Assembly (NCBI RefSeq): GCF_002959915.1
Contig: NZ_PPDE01000008.1
Span: forward strand, 310,001 to 374,000
DNA from: Veillonella atypica KON
Lineage (GTDB): Bacteria > Bacillota > Negativicutes > Veillonellales > Veillonellaceae
Length of the DNA: 64,000 bases
Direction of reading: 5' to 3'
The notes beneath the pieces were generated by a model. The model saw nothing but the letters and a program-made list of their open reading frames with translations. It searched no databases and had not been told where the DNA came from. The translations under genes and the position numbers were made by a program. This document shows, one piece after another, positions 39,365 to 63,990 of the stretch (its first letter is position 1; each line of letters starts with the position of its first letter).

Positions 39365-40303
39365 TTAAAATAAAGAATCTTGTGTGTAATTTGTATCTAC
39401 AATCCAGCTTTTTTCCGCACTCTCTTTAATAATTGCTGTTTTTGAAAGTGTACCTATAAGCAAGCTAGAGTTCGGATCATGTAATAAGCGATTTTGATTA
39501 ACTGCAGCCTGATTACTATTAGCATAACAATAGCGACAAAAATGGCTACAAGTATCATAGGCACCTATATCACCATGTAAATAACAATGACACTCTGGTC
39601 TAGCTGGTGTACGTTTCGGTGCTTTTAATTTTACGTTCCAAGCACGTTCATAACAGTCTAGTGTAAGACAGCCCTCCGTATTAACACCTAATTCTTTGAA
39701 AACCTCCCCTTCTCCACAGGTTTTAAGTATCATATGATGAGAATGCGCTATAGATACTAATTCTTTTATGATCTTCTTTTGAATATCTAAACTCGGTCTA
39801 TAACCTTCAGGAAAATTATGAGCTACCTTATCAAATATATCTATGAAACTGACAACTACGGTATCTGTATATCCTTCTAAAGACTTAGCCATTTTATAAA
39901 AGCTTTCAAAATGAAAATCAACTGTATAGTTGTTGGTTAAAATAATAGGATCATAACGCCACACCATGGACTGAGGATTACGTTTTGTTGATATGTGTTT
40001 AAATCCGTCTATTACTAAATCCACTTGTGGTACATTAGTCTCTATATCTGCTCCATATGGAGTTATAGTCATATGCCAATACTGTCTATAATCATTTATT
40101 TCATGTAAGAGCGGAATAAAAGGCAACGGATTCTTTGTACAAAACGCAATACCATCTACAACCTCATGATTGATAGGATATCGTGTTATCTGTATCGGAT
40201 TATAGGGATTACGTACATCTACAAATCCTTGGCGGACACGATTAATTAACCATTGCCCATAAAAGGCAGGAATATCCGTACGCTGTCCCGTCTGTAAAAT
40301 CAT
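39365..40303 (-). CDS. DUF1848 family protein
   Basis: The 312 residues match DUF1848: an N-terminal FYGQWLINRVRQGFVDVRNP, the segment MVWRYDPIILT, and a C-terminal cysteine cluster (CHCYLHGDIGAYDTCSHFCRYCYAN). The CxxxCxxC resembles a radical-SAM or other Fe-S ligand set, as in spore-photoproduct-lyase-like proteins, though the classical barrel order is not clear. The function is unknown. It stands alone, divergent from a methyltransferase. Confidence 0.8.
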   Translation of the reverse strand: MILQTGQRTDIPAFYGQWLINRVRQGFVDVRNPYNPIQITRYPINHEVVDGIAFCTKNPLPFIPLLHEINDYRQYWHMTITPYGADIETNVPQVDLVIDGFKHISTKRNPQSMVWRYDPIILTNNYTVDFHFESFYKMAKSLEGYTDTVVVSFIDIFDKVAHNFPEGYRPSLDIQKKIIKELVSIAHSHHMILKTCGEGEVFKELGVNTEGCLTLDCYERAWNVKLKAPKRTPARPECHCYLHGDIGAYDTCSHFCRYCYANSNQAAVNQNRLLHDPNSSLLIGTLSKTAIIKESAEKSWIVDTNYTQDSLF

Positions 40304-56485: not shown

Positions 56486-59400
56486 TTAGCCAAACAGCGA
56501 CATTTGTTCGTCTTCTGGCAAATCTCCACAGCATTTAAGTTCTTTCATTGTTTCAATGATGGTAGCAGATACCTTACAACGACGTTGCAAGTCTTTTAAC
56601 GATGTAAACGGTTTTGTTTCCCGTTCTTCTACAATTGCATCGGCAACGGTTTCACCAAGTGAATCGATAGCTAAGAATGGTGGTAATAGTGCGCCGTCCT
56701 TAATGCTAAATCGGCGAGCACCGGAATGTTGAATATCTACGTTGATAAATCGATACCCCCGTTGATACATTTCCATGGATACCTCCAAGGCGGACATCAA
56801 ATCCTTTTCCTTAGGACTGGCACCACGGTCGAGCGCTTTGATACGATTAAATTCTTTCAATTGTGTATTCAAATCACCTGTCATGATCCGTAAATCAAAG
56901 GCTTTTGCACGAATGGAGAAATAGGCAGCATAAAATGCTAACGGATGGTATACCTTAAACCACGCAATACGGAATGCCATCATAACGTAAGCAACGGCAT
57001 GGGCACGAGGGAATAGATAGGAAATCTTTTTACAAGACTCAATAAACCATTCAGGAATATTATTTTCTCGCATTTCTTTTTCAAACTCCGTAGTCGCTTG
57101 GCCTTGTTTATTTCTCTTTTCAATGCCCTTCCCTTTACGAACATTTTCCATGACGAAGAAACTGTTTTTCTTATTCATGCCACGATGAATCAAAAAGTTC
57201 ATTACGTCATCACGAGTAGAAATAGCTTCATTCAATTTACAAGTACCATTTTTAATGAGTTCCTGTGCATTATCGAGCCATACATTCGTACCGTGGGAGA
57301 AACCAGAAATACGAACAAGGTCAGAGAAGGTTTGCGGCCGTGAATCTTCTAGCATGCCCCGTACAAATTTCGTACCACATTCCGGTACGGCAAGGCTCGC
57401 TACTTGGTCCCCTTGCAATTGTTCAGGCGTCAATCCGATACCCTCTGTTGATGAGAATAGGCTTAGCGTTCTCGGATCATCAAAAGGAATCGTCTTCGCA
57501 TCAATACCGGTCAAATCCTCCAGCATACGAATAATCGTCGGATCATCATGGCCCAGAATATCGAGTTTTGTCATACGCCCTTCAATAGAGTGATAATCAA
57601 AGTGAGTCGTTAATACGCCACTCTCTTTTTTATTGGCCGGATGCTGAATCGGCGTAAAATGGTGCACATCCATATCACGAGGACATACCATGATGCCACC
57701 CGGATGTTGGCCTGTTGTATTTTTTACATTTGTAAAACCTTTTGCGAGGTGCTCAAGGAATCCACTGCGAGCCTGAATATTTCTTAGCTCTGCATATTTC
57801 TTTACATACCCAAATGCAGTCTTATCTGCAATGGTACCTATCGTACCAGCCTTAAATACATTGTCACGACCGAACAATTCTTCTGTGTACTTATGAGCCT
57901 TCGCTTGGTAGTCACCAGAGAAATTCAAATCGATATCTGGAACCTTATCGCCTTCGAAACCAAGGAAGATAGCAAACGGAATGTCATGGCCATTCGTTTG
58001 TAATGGATGACCGCAATTAGGACAGTCACGACGCGGTAAATCGAATCCACCGGCGTATTCACCATTTTCATAAAATTCCGACCACTTACATTCAGGGCAA
58101 ATATAATGCGGTGGCAATGGATTAACCTCTGTAATCTCCGACATGGTCGCTGCAAAGGACGAACCTACAGAACCACGAGAACCTACGAGATAGCCATCAT
58201 CTAGCGATTTTTTTACCAGCTTATGAGCGATATAGTAAAGCACGCCATAACCATTGCTGATGATACAGTCGAGCTCATAATCTAGGCGTTCTTGTACAAC
58301 ACGAGGCAATGGATCACCATAAATCTTCTTCGCATTTACATAACACATTTCTGTGAAAGCTTCATCGGCCCCTTCGATTTTAGGTGAATATGTGCCATCT
58401 GGCACTGGTTTAATGTCTTCAATACTATCGTTGATGGCTCGTGTATTCGCAACAACAACCTCATAGGCCTTTTCTTCACTCAAATATGGGAATGAAGCTA
58501 ACATTTCATCAGTAGTACGCAAATGTAAATCCGGTTGTTCATCCGCATCAGGGAACCCACAAGCGGTTAACATAATCTCACGATATATCTTTTCTTCTGG
58601 CGTTAAATAATGAACGTCACAGGTAGCACATACGCGTTTATTGAGGGCTTCGCCCAATTCAATAACCGTCTTATTCATATCGATCAGAGCTTGTTCATCT
58701 GGCACGATACCCTTGCGAATTAAGAATGTATTATTGGTATGTGGTTGAATTTCAAGGTAATCATAGAATGAAGCAATCGTTAATAGCTCTTCTTTGGAGG
58801 AACCTTTAACAATAGCCTGCATCAATTCACCTGCTTCACAGGCAGACCCTATAAGAATACCTTCACGATGCTCTTCAATGATAGAACGAGGCAAACGAGG
58901 TCTCCGTTTATAGTATTCCAAATGGGATATAGAAATCATTTTATACAGATTACGTAAGCCCACCATGTTTTGAGCTAACAAAATAATATGATATCGAGGC
59001 GCTTCATCTTTTCGTTTTACAACGTCTAAGGATAATTCCTTTTCTAAATCCGCATCATCAACGAGATATCCTTCAACGCCATAAATAACCTTAACACCAA
59101 GTTCTTTACCAAGTGCTTGTGCTTCAGGAAAGGCTTGTACAACACCATGGTCCGTAATAGCGACCGCAGGATGGCCCCATTTTTTAACAGTTTTAAATAA
59201 ATCCTTAATCGATACGAGTGCATCTTTATCACTCATCTTAGTATGGAGATGAAGCTCAACACGAGAATCTGGTCTGTCTTCTGTCCGTTCATTTGTATTG
59301 TCTTCTTCGATAGCTTCGATACTACGTATAGATAAAATATAGTCCTTATCAAATCGATCATCAAAGTTGACACTACCTTGAACACGCACCTTTTGCAATT

Positions 59401-60211
59401 TCTTTAATTGCTTTAATAAGGCATCCCCTTCTTCTGGACTATTCGTAAACTTGATAAACTTCATACTGTTCGTATCATCTACGATACTGCCATTTACGAT
59501 ACTTTTACCAGTCCTAGTATCGCGTTTATCAAGGCCAACGAACACACCTTCAAAAATAACACTTGGTGTTTCTACAGTGCCCATGATACTGGAGGTCATG
59601 CCCTCAATGCGTGGACCTAAAATCATACCCTCATCAGTTGGTGCATCCTTAGGCGCGCGTTGTGGATATTTCTTACCACCTTTGTGTTGATGTCCATTAT
59701 TAACTGAAGATGTAGTTGACGAGCTACTAGATACAGATGGATTTCTTGTAGTTACAGATTCATACGATGTGGGGTCTGGATTAAAATAGTCCAATTCCAC
59801 TGCATCCATAAATGGCACAAACTCATCTGCATAATCAATTTCATCATCGTTATTGCCAGCAAAGGACTTTCCTCTCTCTGGCATGTTTTCTTCTTCTAAT
59901 TTTTGTCGATACGCTTCAACGTCTTCAATAAATTCACCTACACCACAACCACCGGCATAGTAGTACGGTGCAAATTCTTCATCATCGTCATCTACCTTCC
60001 ATGCAAAGCAGCAAGATGTAGTTGCATTGGTAGGAATTGTATCAAAGGAAATATTTTTTTCTTTGTACCAAGCAGCTAATCGTTCTTGTAATGACACTAA
60101 TGTTTTAAACGCTGAATCTGCTGCTTGTATGGTTACCTGTTTATCATCACAATTCACATAGAAAGCAGGTTTACTATTCTGTTTTGGTACTACTCGATAA
60201 CGTACTTTCAT
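56486..60211 (-). CDS. polC: DNA polymerase III PolC-type alpha subunit lacking the exonuclease insert
   Basis: PolC is the replicative DNA polymerase. The 1241 residues include an N-terminal domain, a serine/lysine-rich linker (about 150-195), an OB fold (about 215-300), a PHP domain (318-545), and the polymerase domain. The polymerase domain has PDIDLNFSG (catalytic D759, D761), KLDILGHDD (D884) and a zinc knuckle (C705, C708, C730, C733). The usual DnaQ exonuclease inserted in PHP (typical DVETTG motif) is absent; a linker of about 20 residues lies there. PHP metal residues are kept. The length is about 195 short of typical PolC. Confidence 0.95.
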   Translation of the reverse strand: MKVRYRVVPKQNSKPAFYVNCDDKQVTIQAADSAFKTLVSLQERLAAWYKEKNISFDTIPTNATTSCCFAWKVDDDDEEFAPYYYAGGCGVGEFIEDVEAYRQKLEEENMPERGKSFAGNNDDEIDYADEFVPFMDAVELDYFNPDPTSYESVTTRNPSVSSSSSTTSSVNNGHQHKGGKKYPQRAPKDAPTDEGMILGPRIEGMTSSIMGTVETPSVIFEGVFVGLDKRDTRTGKSIVNGSIVDDTNSMKFIKFTNSPEEGDALLKQLKKLQKVRVQGSVNFDDRFDKDYILSIRSIEAIEEDNTNERTEDRPDSRVELHLHTKMSDKDALVSIKDLFKTVKKWGHPAVAITDHGVVQAFPEAQALGKELGVKVIYGVEGYLVDDADLEKELSLDVVKRKDEAPRYHIILLAQNMVGLRNLYKMISISHLEYYKRRPRLPRSIIEEHREGILIGSACEAGELMQAIVKGSSKEELLTIASFYDYLEIQPHTNNTFLIRKGIVPDEQALIDMNKTVIELGEALNKRVCATCDVHYLTPEEKIYREIMLTACGFPDADEQPDLHLRTTDEMLASFPYLSEEKAYEVVVANTRAINDSIEDIKPVPDGTYSPKIEGADEAFTEMCYVNAKKIYGDPLPRVVQERLDYELDCIISNGYGVLYYIAHKLVKKSLDDGYLVGSRGSVGSSFAATMSEITEVNPLPPHYICPECKWSEFYENGEYAGGFDLPRRDCPNCGHPLQTNGHDIPFAIFLGFEGDKVPDIDLNFSGDYQAKAHKYTEELFGRDNVFKAGTIGTIADKTAFGYVKKYAELRNIQARSGFLEHLAKGFTNVKNTTGQHPGGIMVCPRDMDVHHFTPIQHPANKKESGVLTTHFDYHSIEGRMTKLDILGHDDPTIIRMLEDLTGIDAKTIPFDDPRTLSLFSSTEGIGLTPEQLQGDQVASLAVPECGTKFVRGMLEDSRPQTFSDLVRISGFSHGTNVWLDNAQELIKNGTCKLNEAISTRDDVMNFLIHRGMNKKNSFFVMENVRKGKGIEKRNKQGQATTEFEKEMRENNIPEWFIESCKKISYLFPRAHAVAYVMMAFRIAWFKVYHPLAFYAAYFSIRAKAFDLRIMTGDLNTQLKEFNRIKALDRGASPKEKDLMSALEVSMEMYQRGYRFINVDIQHSGARRFSIKDGALLPPFLAIDSLGETVADAIVEERETKPFTSLKDLQRRCKVSATIIETMKELKCCGDLPEDEQMSLFG

Positions 60212-60213
60212 TT

Positions 60214-61194
60214 TTATCCCTTATACCCACAATAGGTCAAACATAAATCCCTAAATCGCCACATATCCCCTTTGCTTGTGCGACTATCTAATATAACCTC
60301 ATATAATCCTTTTAAGAGTGCTTTTAAAGCCTTTATAGAAATACGAGAACTTGCTTCATAGGCCAGTTTTATAGGGTACGGCTTATAAGAGGCCCCATTT
60401 TCTTTACAAAAATTTTCTACCTGTTTAGCTGTCATACCTGCAGCACGACATTCGCTTACCAATAATTGGAGCCGCAACTGTCCTTCGATATAGCCCATAG
60501 CATGGTCGATTTCTTTATAGCTAAACATAAACGGAAATAATTCTAACAAGGTATTCACATCTTGTTTTAATAAAGCTTCTTTAAAGGTAAAGATATTTTT
60601 AGCTCCATAATTACTGCTATGTTCCATTAAAAAGGATTTATCTATTTTCTTATGATTACCTAATAACAGAAAATATCGATCAAACTCGGTACGCATAAAC
60701 GCAACCGGCACATCTTGCCATAACTCCAATAGATGAGATAGATAATCGTGCCCATCAGACGTTAGCGTATATCCATTAGAGGTGCAATACTGACGAATCC
60801 ACATCAATAAATCGTCACCCTCTAATCGCTTACATTCCTTATTAGGAATAGATTCTAATATCTTTTTATTTTGTTTTAATCGTTTATCCACCATATCGTG
60901 ATAGATAATAAGTACTGGATTATCACCGGTATAATTCATCAGTAACTCGGCCAGTGCATCCCATTCTTGACTCTCTTTTTGGCCTGCTTTTTTCAAGATA
61001 GGTAGATTGATAAGACAAAATACCTTAGCATCGCCAAATAAAGAATCCTCCATCAATTGTTCTGATATTTTAGAAGGACCTGCTTCATCATGCAATACGC
61101 GCACATCTAGATTTTTATGAGATAAGAAAAACTTTTGTTTCTCTTCTTCTATGAGTTGTGGTTCATTACCATAAATTAGGTATACTTGATGCAT
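60214..61194 (-). CDS. holA: DNA polymerase III delta subunit
   Basis: HolA opens the sliding clamp in the clamp loader. The 326 residues start MHQVYLIYGNEPQLIEEEK, with the usual FCLINLPILKK and a C-terminal GYIEGQLRLQLLVSECRAAGMT segment typical of HolA. ATG 61194 is preferred because AAAGGAGG lies 7 nt upstream; the longer version overlaps comEC and lacks such a site. It lies between comEC and polC on the same strand, 2 nt from polC. Confidence 0.9.
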   Translation of the reverse strand: MHQVYLIYGNEPQLIEEEKQKFFLSHKNLDVRVLHDEAGPSKISEQLMEDSLFGDAKVFCLINLPILKKAGQKESQEWDALAELLMNYTGDNPVLIIYHDMVDKRLKQNKKILESIPNKECKRLEGDDLLMWIRQYCTSNGYTLTSDGHDYLSHLLELWQDVPVAFMRTEFDRYFLLLGNHKKIDKSFLMEHSSNYGAKNIFTFKEALLKQDVNTLLELFPFMFSYKEIDHAMGYIEGQLRLQLLVSECRAAGMTAKQVENFCKENGASYKPYPIKLAYEASSRISIKALKALLKGLYEVILDSRTSKGDMWRFRDLCLTYCGYKG

Positions 61195-61208
61195 CGCCAG
61201 TCCTCCTT

Positions 61209-63401
61209 TCATAATCGATAGTCCGGAATATATTGATAGCCCCATAAATGAACATGTTCTGCATCGGGATCAATGTCTCGCATCGCTCCTCGAGGCATGC
61301 TAACAAGTACAGGACGATTCGTATGTAATGCTACAATTTGATTCACCATATACGACTGAGAGGTAATCAAAATAGTGTTCCTCATATCATTTAATTGTAG
61401 TTTTTTTTCACCATTTTGTCTATTATAGACCATCACAGACGTTAAATCATTTTTGTATAAAACAGTATTTTTGCCCGTCGATTGAAATCGTTGAACATGA
61501 GCATTTTTTAATGGAATACCAAAACTTTGGAGTCCATTTCTTACGCGAATTTCACTAGCTTTCATAGGAATAGCATCAGGTGTATCAATATATACCATAG
61601 CTATTTTTTCATAAGGCTTAACAATGAGGAATGCATTTGACTGTTTCATAGGTATAATATGCAAAATCGTTTCATTCCTATATAAGATGCCACTATAAGC
61701 TATAGCAATTATGCCAATTCCCATAAGTACAATTCCTTTTGTGAAAGTTCTAAATTTAAGCTTTAATGAGACTAGGTTAATATATAGTAATCCCACACAT
61801 CCATAGTATAACACCCCTAATGTGGCAGAAATGGTACCTATCCACCATAGACATATAGAACTGTTAGCGAGATGCGCATTTACATATAAACAGATAGTTA
61901 ATATCCAGTCGATTACGTTCCAAACCATACCTATTGGTATAAGTAAGGATATTATGGTACAACCAAATAACATAACAATAGCTATATCAAGTAAAGGTGT
62001 AATAATAATAGCTGCAAAAAGACTTGCTAAACTCAAATAGTGAAAGTAATAGAGCTGGAACGGTATCAATAAAAGTTGTGCACTGATGCAGAGTACTAGT
62101 GGAGCTTTCACAATCGGTGGCAATACTGTGATCCATCGATATAATGGCATGCCAAATAATAAGAGCCCATAGGTAGCTCCAAAGGATAGTTGAAAGCTCA
62201 CGTCTAATATAAGTAACGGATCATATAGTAAAAATAGTATAGCCGTCACTGCTAATCCTTGCTTCGCCGTATACATACGGCCCTTTACATAGGCTAAAGC
62301 AAGCCAAATCCCCATTATGGTGGAACGCACAACAGGTGCACTGAAACCAACTACTATACAATAAAAGATAGATAGTATAATACCACCCATCATAGCATAA
62401 CGTTTCCTGATACGACATACTCTGCATAGGCCATATACGATAGAAAATAACAGTGCAATATGGGAACCCGATATAGATAAAATATGAATGATACCAGTGT
62501 AGCCAAATTGACGTAGCACATCTTGACCTAATTCTCCATAATGGCCTCCTAGAACTAATGAAATTCCAAGCCATTTGGTTGTATCTGATAGATATTGCTC
62601 CATCAATTCTTCAACAGCACTACGCATCGAATCAATTATGTGAAGACACCGTTGATAATAACCGATATAAGAATCTATCTTATACTGTTTTAGAGCATGT
62701 AAATCCACCACCTTATAGGTACCATCAAACATGGCACCCATATCTTCATTACGAATTGCCTTATTTCGCTTATCAATAGTGCCTCTCTCTTCTGTCAAAT
62801 AGAGAGATCTAGGCGTACCATGAACGATAATCGAATCCCCCATATGAAGATGTGTAGAATTTTCTTGTATTGTTACTCTAATATGCCCATCGGCCTTAAT
62901 ATGCACGCCTTTTGCCGTATCCTTGTGTGGCACTAACCCTAACAATATAGCACTAAATGATCTATATTCTTTCCCATCAATCACTTTTAAATCTACCGGA
63001 GAATCAATGAGTAGTGCATATTCGCCTTCTTGTGATAAAAAGAATTTAGTGTGCCCTACATACTGATTAATTTGATGGTTTACATGTAAAAATGATATGC
63101 CACCTAATGCACATGAGACGATGCAGGTTACAACTATATATTTAATTGACAAAGACGATTGTAACCTATAGCGAACCACAGCTTTACCCAATGTATATAG
63201 TAGATAGCCAGCAGCACCAAACATACAATACCAACTCGTATCGAGCAATACATAATGCGAGCTATAGGCACATAAAATGCCTAGTATGATACCACTTAGA
63301 ATATAATGGGCTATCTCCGAATAGGTGATTAGCATATTCAGTGTCAAATAAATAGGTAAATTAGACTGTAATTTTATCGCGTATCTTCTTAAATAATCCA
63401 T
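61209..63401 (-). CDS. comEC: ComEC/Rec2 DNA uptake channel, no visible nuclease domain
   Basis: ComEC carries single-stranded DNA across the inner membrane in transformation. The protein is about 730 residues. It has a soluble N-terminal OB-like domain between transmembrane segments, then the competence domain with TGIIHILSISGSHIALLFS and GFSAPVVRSTIMGIW. The C-terminal roughly 170 residues lack the HxHxDH metallo-beta-lactamase motif. ATG 63401 follows AAAGGT. It overlaps comEA by 41 nt. Confidence 0.9.
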   Translation of the reverse strand: MDYLRRYAIKLQSNLPIYLTLNMLITYSEIAHYILSGIILGILCAYSSHYVLLDTSWYCMFGAAGYLLYTLGKAVVRYRLQSSLSIKYIVVTCIVSCALGGISFLHVNHQINQYVGHTKFFLSQEGEYALLIDSPVDLKVIDGKEYRSFSAILLGLVPHKDTAKGVHIKADGHIRVTIQENSTHLHMGDSIIVHGTPRSLYLTEERGTIDKRNKAIRNEDMGAMFDGTYKVVDLHALKQYKIDSYIGYYQRCLHIIDSMRSAVEELMEQYLSDTTKWLGISLVLGGHYGELGQDVLRQFGYTGIIHILSISGSHIALLFSIVYGLCRVCRIRKRYAMMGGIILSIFYCIVVGFSAPVVRSTIMGIWLALAYVKGRMYTAKQGLAVTAILFLLYDPLLILDVSFQLSFGATYGLLLFGMPLYRWITVLPPIVKAPLVLCISAQLLLIPFQLYYFHYLSLASLFAAIIITPLLDIAIVMLFGCTIISLLIPIGMVWNVIDWILTICLYVNAHLANSSICLWWIGTISATLGVLYYGCVGLLYINLVSLKLKFRTFTKGIVLMGIGIIAIAYSGILYRNETILHIIPMKQSNAFLIVKPYEKIAMVYIDTPDAIPMKASEIRVRNGLQSFGIPLKNAHVQRFQSTGKNTVLYKNDLTSVMVYNRQNGEKKLQLNDMRNTILITSQSYMVNQIVALHTNRPVLVSMPRGAMRDIDPDAEHVHLWGYQYIPDYRL

Positions 63402-63990
63402 CGCCGATACCTTTGACATGCTTGATATCCTCTATAGATGTAAAAGCGCCCTTACTTTGACGATACTCTTCAATCCGTTGTGCCATGGTTGGCCCAATTC
63501 CAGGCAGTGAATCGAGTTCCTTAACGGTAGCCGTGTTAATATTAATCTTTTGATTTCGTAGTAATGATTCAGGATTCCCGTGAAAGTTAAATTTGATGTG
63601 AATATGTTGTCCGCCTGTCACTGTCTCTGCTAAATTGATGGACTCTATATCTCCATATGGTAGTGCACCTCCAGCCCCCTTTATAACATCGCCAATTGTC
63701 GTGCTAGATGCCACCTTATAAAGTCCTGGTGATTGAATAGCGCCCGTCACATACACAATAGCATCTGTACCTTCAGTATGTTGTTCAGGTTGAACTACCC
63801 CATTATTAGCATGAATAGAATTACTTTCATGATGATTAATGCTATTCATGTCTGAAGTATTAGCCGCTAATACGGACGAATCTGGCATTGTGGTGCTTCC
63901 TTCTGTTATAATAGGCCATAGGAAATAAATTCCTACTAAAATACACAGGATTATTACAATCCACTTATGTGACACAATCATTTGTTTCAT
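63361..63990 (-). CDS. comEA: Competence protein ComEA
   Basis: ComEA is a membrane-anchored receptor for double-stranded DNA. The 209 residues have an N-terminal transmembrane anchor (WIVIILCILVGIYFLWPII), a flexible linker, an SLBB domain (IVYVTGAIQSPGLYKV, then IKGAGGALPYGDIESINLAE), and a C-terminal helix-hairpin-helix pair (NINTATVKELDSLPGIGP, then FTSIEDIKHVKGIGDGLFKK). It is the first gene of a comEA-comEC-holA-polC run. Confidence 0.94.
   Translation of the reverse strand: MKQMIVSHKWIVIILCILVGIYFLWPIITEGSTTMPDSSVLAANTSDMNSINHHESNSIHANNGVVQPEQHTEGTDAIVYVTGAIQSPGLYKVASSTTIGDVIKGAGGALPYGDIESINLAETVTGGQHIHIKFNFHGNPESLLRNQKININTATVKELDSLPGIGPTMAQRIEEYRQSKGAFTSIEDIKHVKGIGDGLFKKIRDKITV

Follow-up and report, generated by a model that had tools for sequence, protein, structure and literature searches.

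Which activity proofreads the DNA made by a PolC that lacks its customary exonuclease? The question is raised by a locus of Veillonella atypica KON, which was analysed within a stretch of 64,000 nucleotides (hereafter the window). PolC fidelity is usually attributed to an inserted DnaQ domain. The polC gene of the window (56486..60211, minus strand) specifies a PolC-type DNA polymerase III of 1241 amino acids without this insert, as judged from Pfam and NCBIfam profiles and from Veillonella records. The protein scores 1462.8 bits against NF001688 (cut-off 873) and 1347.3 bits against TIGR01405 (cut-off 1043.45), and Pfam recognizes in it a PHP domain (residues 319-490), DNA_pol3_alpha, the finger domain and HHH_6. 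No RNase_T/DnaQ domain was found by Pfam up to E = 1, so that the absence of this exonuclease from the protein, claimed in an earlier note on this DNA, was confirmed.

The comparison was extended to an alignment of 121 PolC sequences, namely 45 from the Negativicutes, 36 other exonuclease-less proteins and 40 which carry the exonuclease. From the Pfam match and the ligand columns of this alignment the PHP domain is taken to begin at residue 319 and to close with the last of its metal ligands at residue 534 (58610..59257, minus strand). All nine metal ligands (H321, H323, D354, H355, E380, H408, C458, D532 and H534) align exactly where the note had placed them. The spacing between E380 and H408 is 28 residues versus 211–218 in 40/40 of the aligned exonuclease-bearing proteins, which indicates that approximately 185 residues are missing (180–200 had been estimated) and that the PHP domain is, as proposed, uninterrupted. 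Where other PolCs have the exonuclease of ca. 185 residues there is a short loop, residues 386-405 (58997..59056, minus strand), which falls within the interval 58990-59065 given previously for the junction. The Geobacillus PolC chain in PDB 3f2b, which is free of the exonuclease, aligns with the window protein over one continuous stretch; that structure is described as lacking the DnaQ exonuclease (figure legend in PMC3919608). An AlphaFold2 model of the Veillonella protein is of moderate quality (mean pLDDT 74.7, pTM 0.48) and was used only for the low-confidence loop (pLDDT <50 at residues 394-403) and for the best fold match, which is again 3f2b (TM-score 0.51).

The absence of the exonuclease is real and no artefact. 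Since the whole protein (residues 1-1241) is found in seven named Veillonella records at 81–99% identity, the nearest being V. tobetsuensis at 99%, the frameshift or assembly gap that might have explained the junction is ruled out. The window contains no N, and the G+C content of the junction (0.39) is similar to that of polC (0.41). The notion that an assembly or sequencing error removed the exonuclease is also at odds with 300 genomes of the class, in which the best match reaches 1327.1 bits against at least 1493 bits in the 86 listed exonuclease-spanning rows of a phylum search; nothing was found in its support, and we consider it refuted.

The architecture itself is not new. Exonuclease-less PolCs were reported from Clostridia and Negativicutes by Timinskas 2013 (PMC3919608), which answers the earlier question of whether it had been described for this lineage. 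Like the window protein, those PolCs have no Exo insertion in the PHP domain, occur in genomes with both PolC and DnaE1, and keep the PHP metal site. They made up 6% of the PolCs in that survey and 16% of its PolC + DnaE1 set (PMC3919608). In contrast to the 6%, all Negativicutes sampled here look to be fixed for the exonuclease-less state, and it accounts for 64 of the best 150 of 217 rows from the phylum.

The class was surveyed with the PolC profile TIGR01405 in 300 Negativicutes genomes. Matches were obtained in 299/300 at E <= 0.001 with a profile which also reaches DnaE (it matches in E. coli), and 282/300 score above the PolC cut-off. The top score among the matches listed is the 1327.1 bits given above. 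When 299 genomes were drawn from the phylum, 217 possessed a PolC at E <= 1e-100; in the best 150 of these 217 rows, 86 span the exonuclease part, all listed ones scoring at least 1493 bits, and 64 start behind it, one of the latter (G373) being cut by a contig end. A check of the sequences themselves, 40 exonuclease-bearing and 36 exonuclease-less, agreed with the scoring in every case. The comparison with related Negativicutes that the earlier note had proposed gave the same picture, the exonuclease being found in 0/45 of the PolCs checked in sequence, the window's included. Thus, among the matches listed, none of the sampled Negativicutes appears to have an intact exonuclease-bearing PolC, fragmented copies being beyond judging. 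No prior description of this class-wide fixation, of DnaQ-free members or of the tailed Veillonellaceae DnaQ discussed below was found in a limited literature search.

In a quick PolC tree the 17 rows from the Negativicutes come together with support. Whether the exonuclease was gained or lost just once in the phylum was also considered. The unrooted tree of 93 rows needs seven changes, two of them forced by well-supported branches; forcing the 40 exonuclease-bearing rows into a single clade gives a tree that is not rejected (p-AU 0.083). Several losses in the phylum are suggested, gain and loss being inseparable because the tree is unrooted. One exonuclease-less protein of the same phylum (L141) has an E-to-H spacing of 85 and, at the exonuclease site, an Ala- and acid-rich insert in which no DnaQ motif was found.

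If the exonuclease is gone, what is left in the protein is the PHP domain. Its ligand signature in the window PolC, HHDHEHCDH, agrees with HHDHEH[C/H]DH, the published definition of an active PHP site (PMC12926913). The same signature is intact in 79/80 fully readable exonuclease-less PolCs of the alignment, that is, in 44/44 from the Negativicutes (one more is incomplete) and in 35/36 from elsewhere. The sole fully readable exception, L132 from a genome of the same phylum (G357), has E for D at the third position. Among the exonuclease-bearing proteins 33/40 have the signature as well and the other seven have N at the eighth ligand. A takeover of proofreading by the PHP domain is therefore not provable by conservation alone, and the idea that a switch between D and N at the eighth ligand tracks exonuclease loss was abandoned, since 33/40 of the exonuclease-bearing PolCs keep D.

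The PolCs of Bacillus, Geobacillus and Staphylococcus (3f2b, 9qpc) are homologous to the window protein in their PHP, polymerase and HhH parts; unlike it they carry the DnaQ exonuclease and have N rather than D at the eighth PHP ligand. Gka PolC, in which one ligand is changed, has no exonuclease activity (PMC5636811), and it has N at the position of D532. Mycobacterium tuberculosis DnaE1 (5lew, 7pu7) shares with the window PolC the nine-ligand PHP site and a long loop in the same place. It differs in being of the DnaE type with another domain order, and the two show 18–19% identity in the fold search. In the M. tuberculosis enzyme the exonuclease is demonstrated, and this PHP activity is used for proofreading (PMC5636811). 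The metal-coordinating PHP residues of Sporomusa ovata PolC have been noted and a role in proofreading suggested (PMC4632017).

The loop that accompanies the PHP site merits separate consideration. The DnaQ domain of PolC sits inserted in a loop beside this site, and the active enzymes of M. tuberculosis and Taq have longer PHP loops, 29 residues in the former (PMC5636811). The loop of the window protein is intermediate in length, with an E-to-H spacing of 28, and the spacing is 30 in two other Veillonella rows (L157, L158). A count by hand gives 23 for Taq, 34 for M. tuberculosis and 22 for the Veillonella DnaE1. The spacing is 13–15 in 42 other Negativicutes rows, including one (L159) of the window's own family. 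The short loop in most Negativicutes rows argues somewhat against an M. tuberculosis-like mechanism in these.

The statement of the earlier note that there is no DnaQ-type proofreading exonuclease is right for the protein and fails for the genome, in which three DnaQ-family proteins are encoded outside the window: an 861-aa UvrD helicase with a DnaQ domain, a stand-alone exonuclease of 209 aa and a KapD-like protein of 327 aa. The catalytic D, E, D, H and D are invariant across eight aligned DnaQ-family sequences. In the 209-aa protein the DEDDh residues are D8, E10, D93, H146 and D151, invariant in 25 aligned members, and its AlphaFold2 model (mean pLDDT 94.8) resembles the structures of ExoX, DinG, the PolC exonuclease and epsilon. 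The protein ends in EQMSFF, a clamp-type motif; the QMSFF-type tail is one which we take to be a sliding-clamp-binding motif. A Q-x-x-F-F tail follows a variable linker in 28/28 homologs from f1, the family of the window and presumably the Veillonellaceae, as Q(M/L)SFF in 22 and QD(T/A)FF in six. No clamp-type tail was present in two homologs from family f2, and among 40 members fetched from other families nine (L180, L181, L182, L184, L194 and L196–L199) have an LF-type tail and 31 have none. The 209-aa family has matches in 193/300 class genomes at E <= 1e-10, a proportion which rules it out as a class-wide replacement for the missing domain. No paper on dnaQ and proofreading in Veillonella, or on DnaQ in the Negativicutes, was found in a limited literature search.

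The DnaQ domain of the UvrD-type helicase (861 aa; G000:C5, L001:19-2604) lies within the UvrD_C region. At E <= 1e-15, 108/300 Negativicutes genomes match its exonuclease part (loci L067–L086 among them); the strong ones are mostly from families f1, f2 and f14, and the weakest are shorter proteins without a helicase. A literature search gave no title that describes a UvrD-DnaQ fusion. That the domain lost from PolC was relocated to another protein finds no support in a quick tree of 123 rows without a root. There the UvrD-borne exonucleases form one group, the stand-alone ones another bar one odd row, and those of PolC a third with one extra change, in a tree where long branches meet and one group may yet be nested in another.

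Some members of the class may have no DnaQ protein at all. PF00929 matches 271/300 genomes, and 216 of the 227 with a completeness of 90% or more and a contamination of 5% or less. Sixteen of the 29 negative genomes were searched again with a profile built from eight DnaQ sequences, and 15/16 were still negative at E <= 0.01, nine of these 15 being within the same limits of completeness and contamination; the absence rests on 16/29 candidates, a loose first pass and assemblies many of which are fragmented. The one genome which matched (G022) had been missed by the looser PF00929 pass, and it was also found in the search with the 209-aa DnaQ. Of the other genomes included, the window's own (G000), G409 and G339 matched, and G332, from another class and with an exonuclease-less PolC, did not.

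DnaE1 was recovered in 10/11 of the twice-negative genomes searched, with HHDHEHCDH in 10/10. PolC was readable in nine of these genomes. The PHP motifs are present, the text pattern for the E motif having missed two, and no exonuclease motif was found in any of the nine; two further PolC loci are fragments. In these DnaQ-negative genomes the PHP sites would be the remaining known candidates for proofreading, unless a distant exonuclease is hidden there (the DEDDy exonuclease of Pol I lay outside the search). The Veillonella genome, too, has a DnaE1, whose nine ligands read identically.

These data bear on the earlier proposal that proofreading is done either by the PHP domain itself or by a separate protein. 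The first is better supported, because the exact active signature is kept and because 15 genomes were twice negative for DnaQ; the second is plausible in Veillonella, given a DnaQ with a clamp-type tail. The reading we favour, and hold to be on balance probable, is that the PHP domain of PolC, together with that of DnaE1, is the primary proofreader and that the tailed DnaQ is a co-proofreader, in a manner comparable to that in mycobacteria. The PHP domain of PolC would hold a trinuclear zinc site, which would remove mispaired 3' ends during synthesis by PolC as in the DnaE1 enzymes of mycobacteria and Thermus, and the genome's DnaE1, which shares the signature, would proofread likewise. The 209-aa DnaQ of the Veillonellaceae would be tethered to the sliding clamp through its C-terminal QMSFF. 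The mycobacterial DnaQ reportedly binds the clamp. The tethered Veillonella protein would act in trans as a second proofreader, as has been reported for the stand-alone mycobacterial DnaQ, which synergises with the PHP proofreader (Deng et al. 2024, via PMC12926913). The likeness proposed is one of role; the mycobacterial DnaQ partners DnaE1, and the partner proposed for the Veillonella DnaQ is PolC. The wider version, in which the PolC of Negativicutes generally proofreads through a zinc PHP site, some cells being free of DnaQ, and in which the Veillonellaceae (perhaps, separately, a few others) added a clamp-tailed DnaQ, is put forward more tentatively, at somewhat less than even probability. 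If true, this would be the PolC counterpart of the mycobacterial arrangement of PHP and DnaQ. A class with a seemingly fixed exonuclease-less PolC, and with some members apparently free of DnaQ, is a natural test of PHP proofreading in PolC; it would also inform how common human commensals set their error rates, and the repeated swaps between zinc-dependent proofreading by PHP and magnesium-dependent proofreading by DnaQ.

Two other explanations deserve attention. The lost function might be supplied mainly in trans by a DnaQ-family protein, whether the 209-aa exonuclease, the UvrD-DnaQ fusion or the KapD-like protein, the PHP domain being structural only. The three such proteins in the genome, their invariant catalytic residues in the alignment of eight and the clamp-type tail in 28/28 genomes of the window's family all speak for this, but with 15/16 of the re-tested genomes negative for DnaQ it cannot serve the whole class. 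It also leaves the intact PHP ligands to be explained, which contrast with those of E. coli Pol III alpha, where 5/9 are altered (PMC5636811), and the unrooted tree sets the stand-alone and UvrD-borne exonucleases apart from those of PolC, although its long branches leave room for a moved domain. We regard this explanation as unlikely. Quite improbable, in our view, is that DnaE1 carries out bulk replication, with PolC an accessory enzyme in no need of proofreading of its own. The possibility was raised for PolC + DnaE1 genomes in general (PMC3919608), and the genome does encode a DnaE1 whose PHP signature is of the active form. Against it, PolC is above the cut-off in 282/300 class genomes, its PHP ligands are not decaying, the protein ends in a clamp-type motif and, in Veillonella, its gene lies directly behind holA.

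That neighbour, which encodes the delta (clamp-loader) subunit of DNA polymerase III (60214..61245, minus strand; TIGR01128, E 4.9e-37), is separated from polC by two bases and forms the end of a comEA-comEC-holA series on the minus strand (60214-63990). It was found upstream of polC in 9/9 other Veillonella loci examined and beside polC in none of 27 loci from other genera, many of which have too little upstream DNA.

The motif at the end of PolC is QMSLF (residues 1236-1240; 56492..56506, minus strand), which is presumably its clamp motif and is here called putative from the translation. Among the window ORFs of at least 150 amino acids 2/62 end in a motif of this type, PolC and one unrelated protein, and as stand-alone evidence such a tail was set aside as too weak. 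A clamp-binding motif of PolC is mentioned in PMC3919608. The unrelated protein, of 312 amino acids (39365-40303), has no NCBIfam match at E <= 1e-5 and ends in QDSLF, a clamp-binding-like tail which probably arose by chance.
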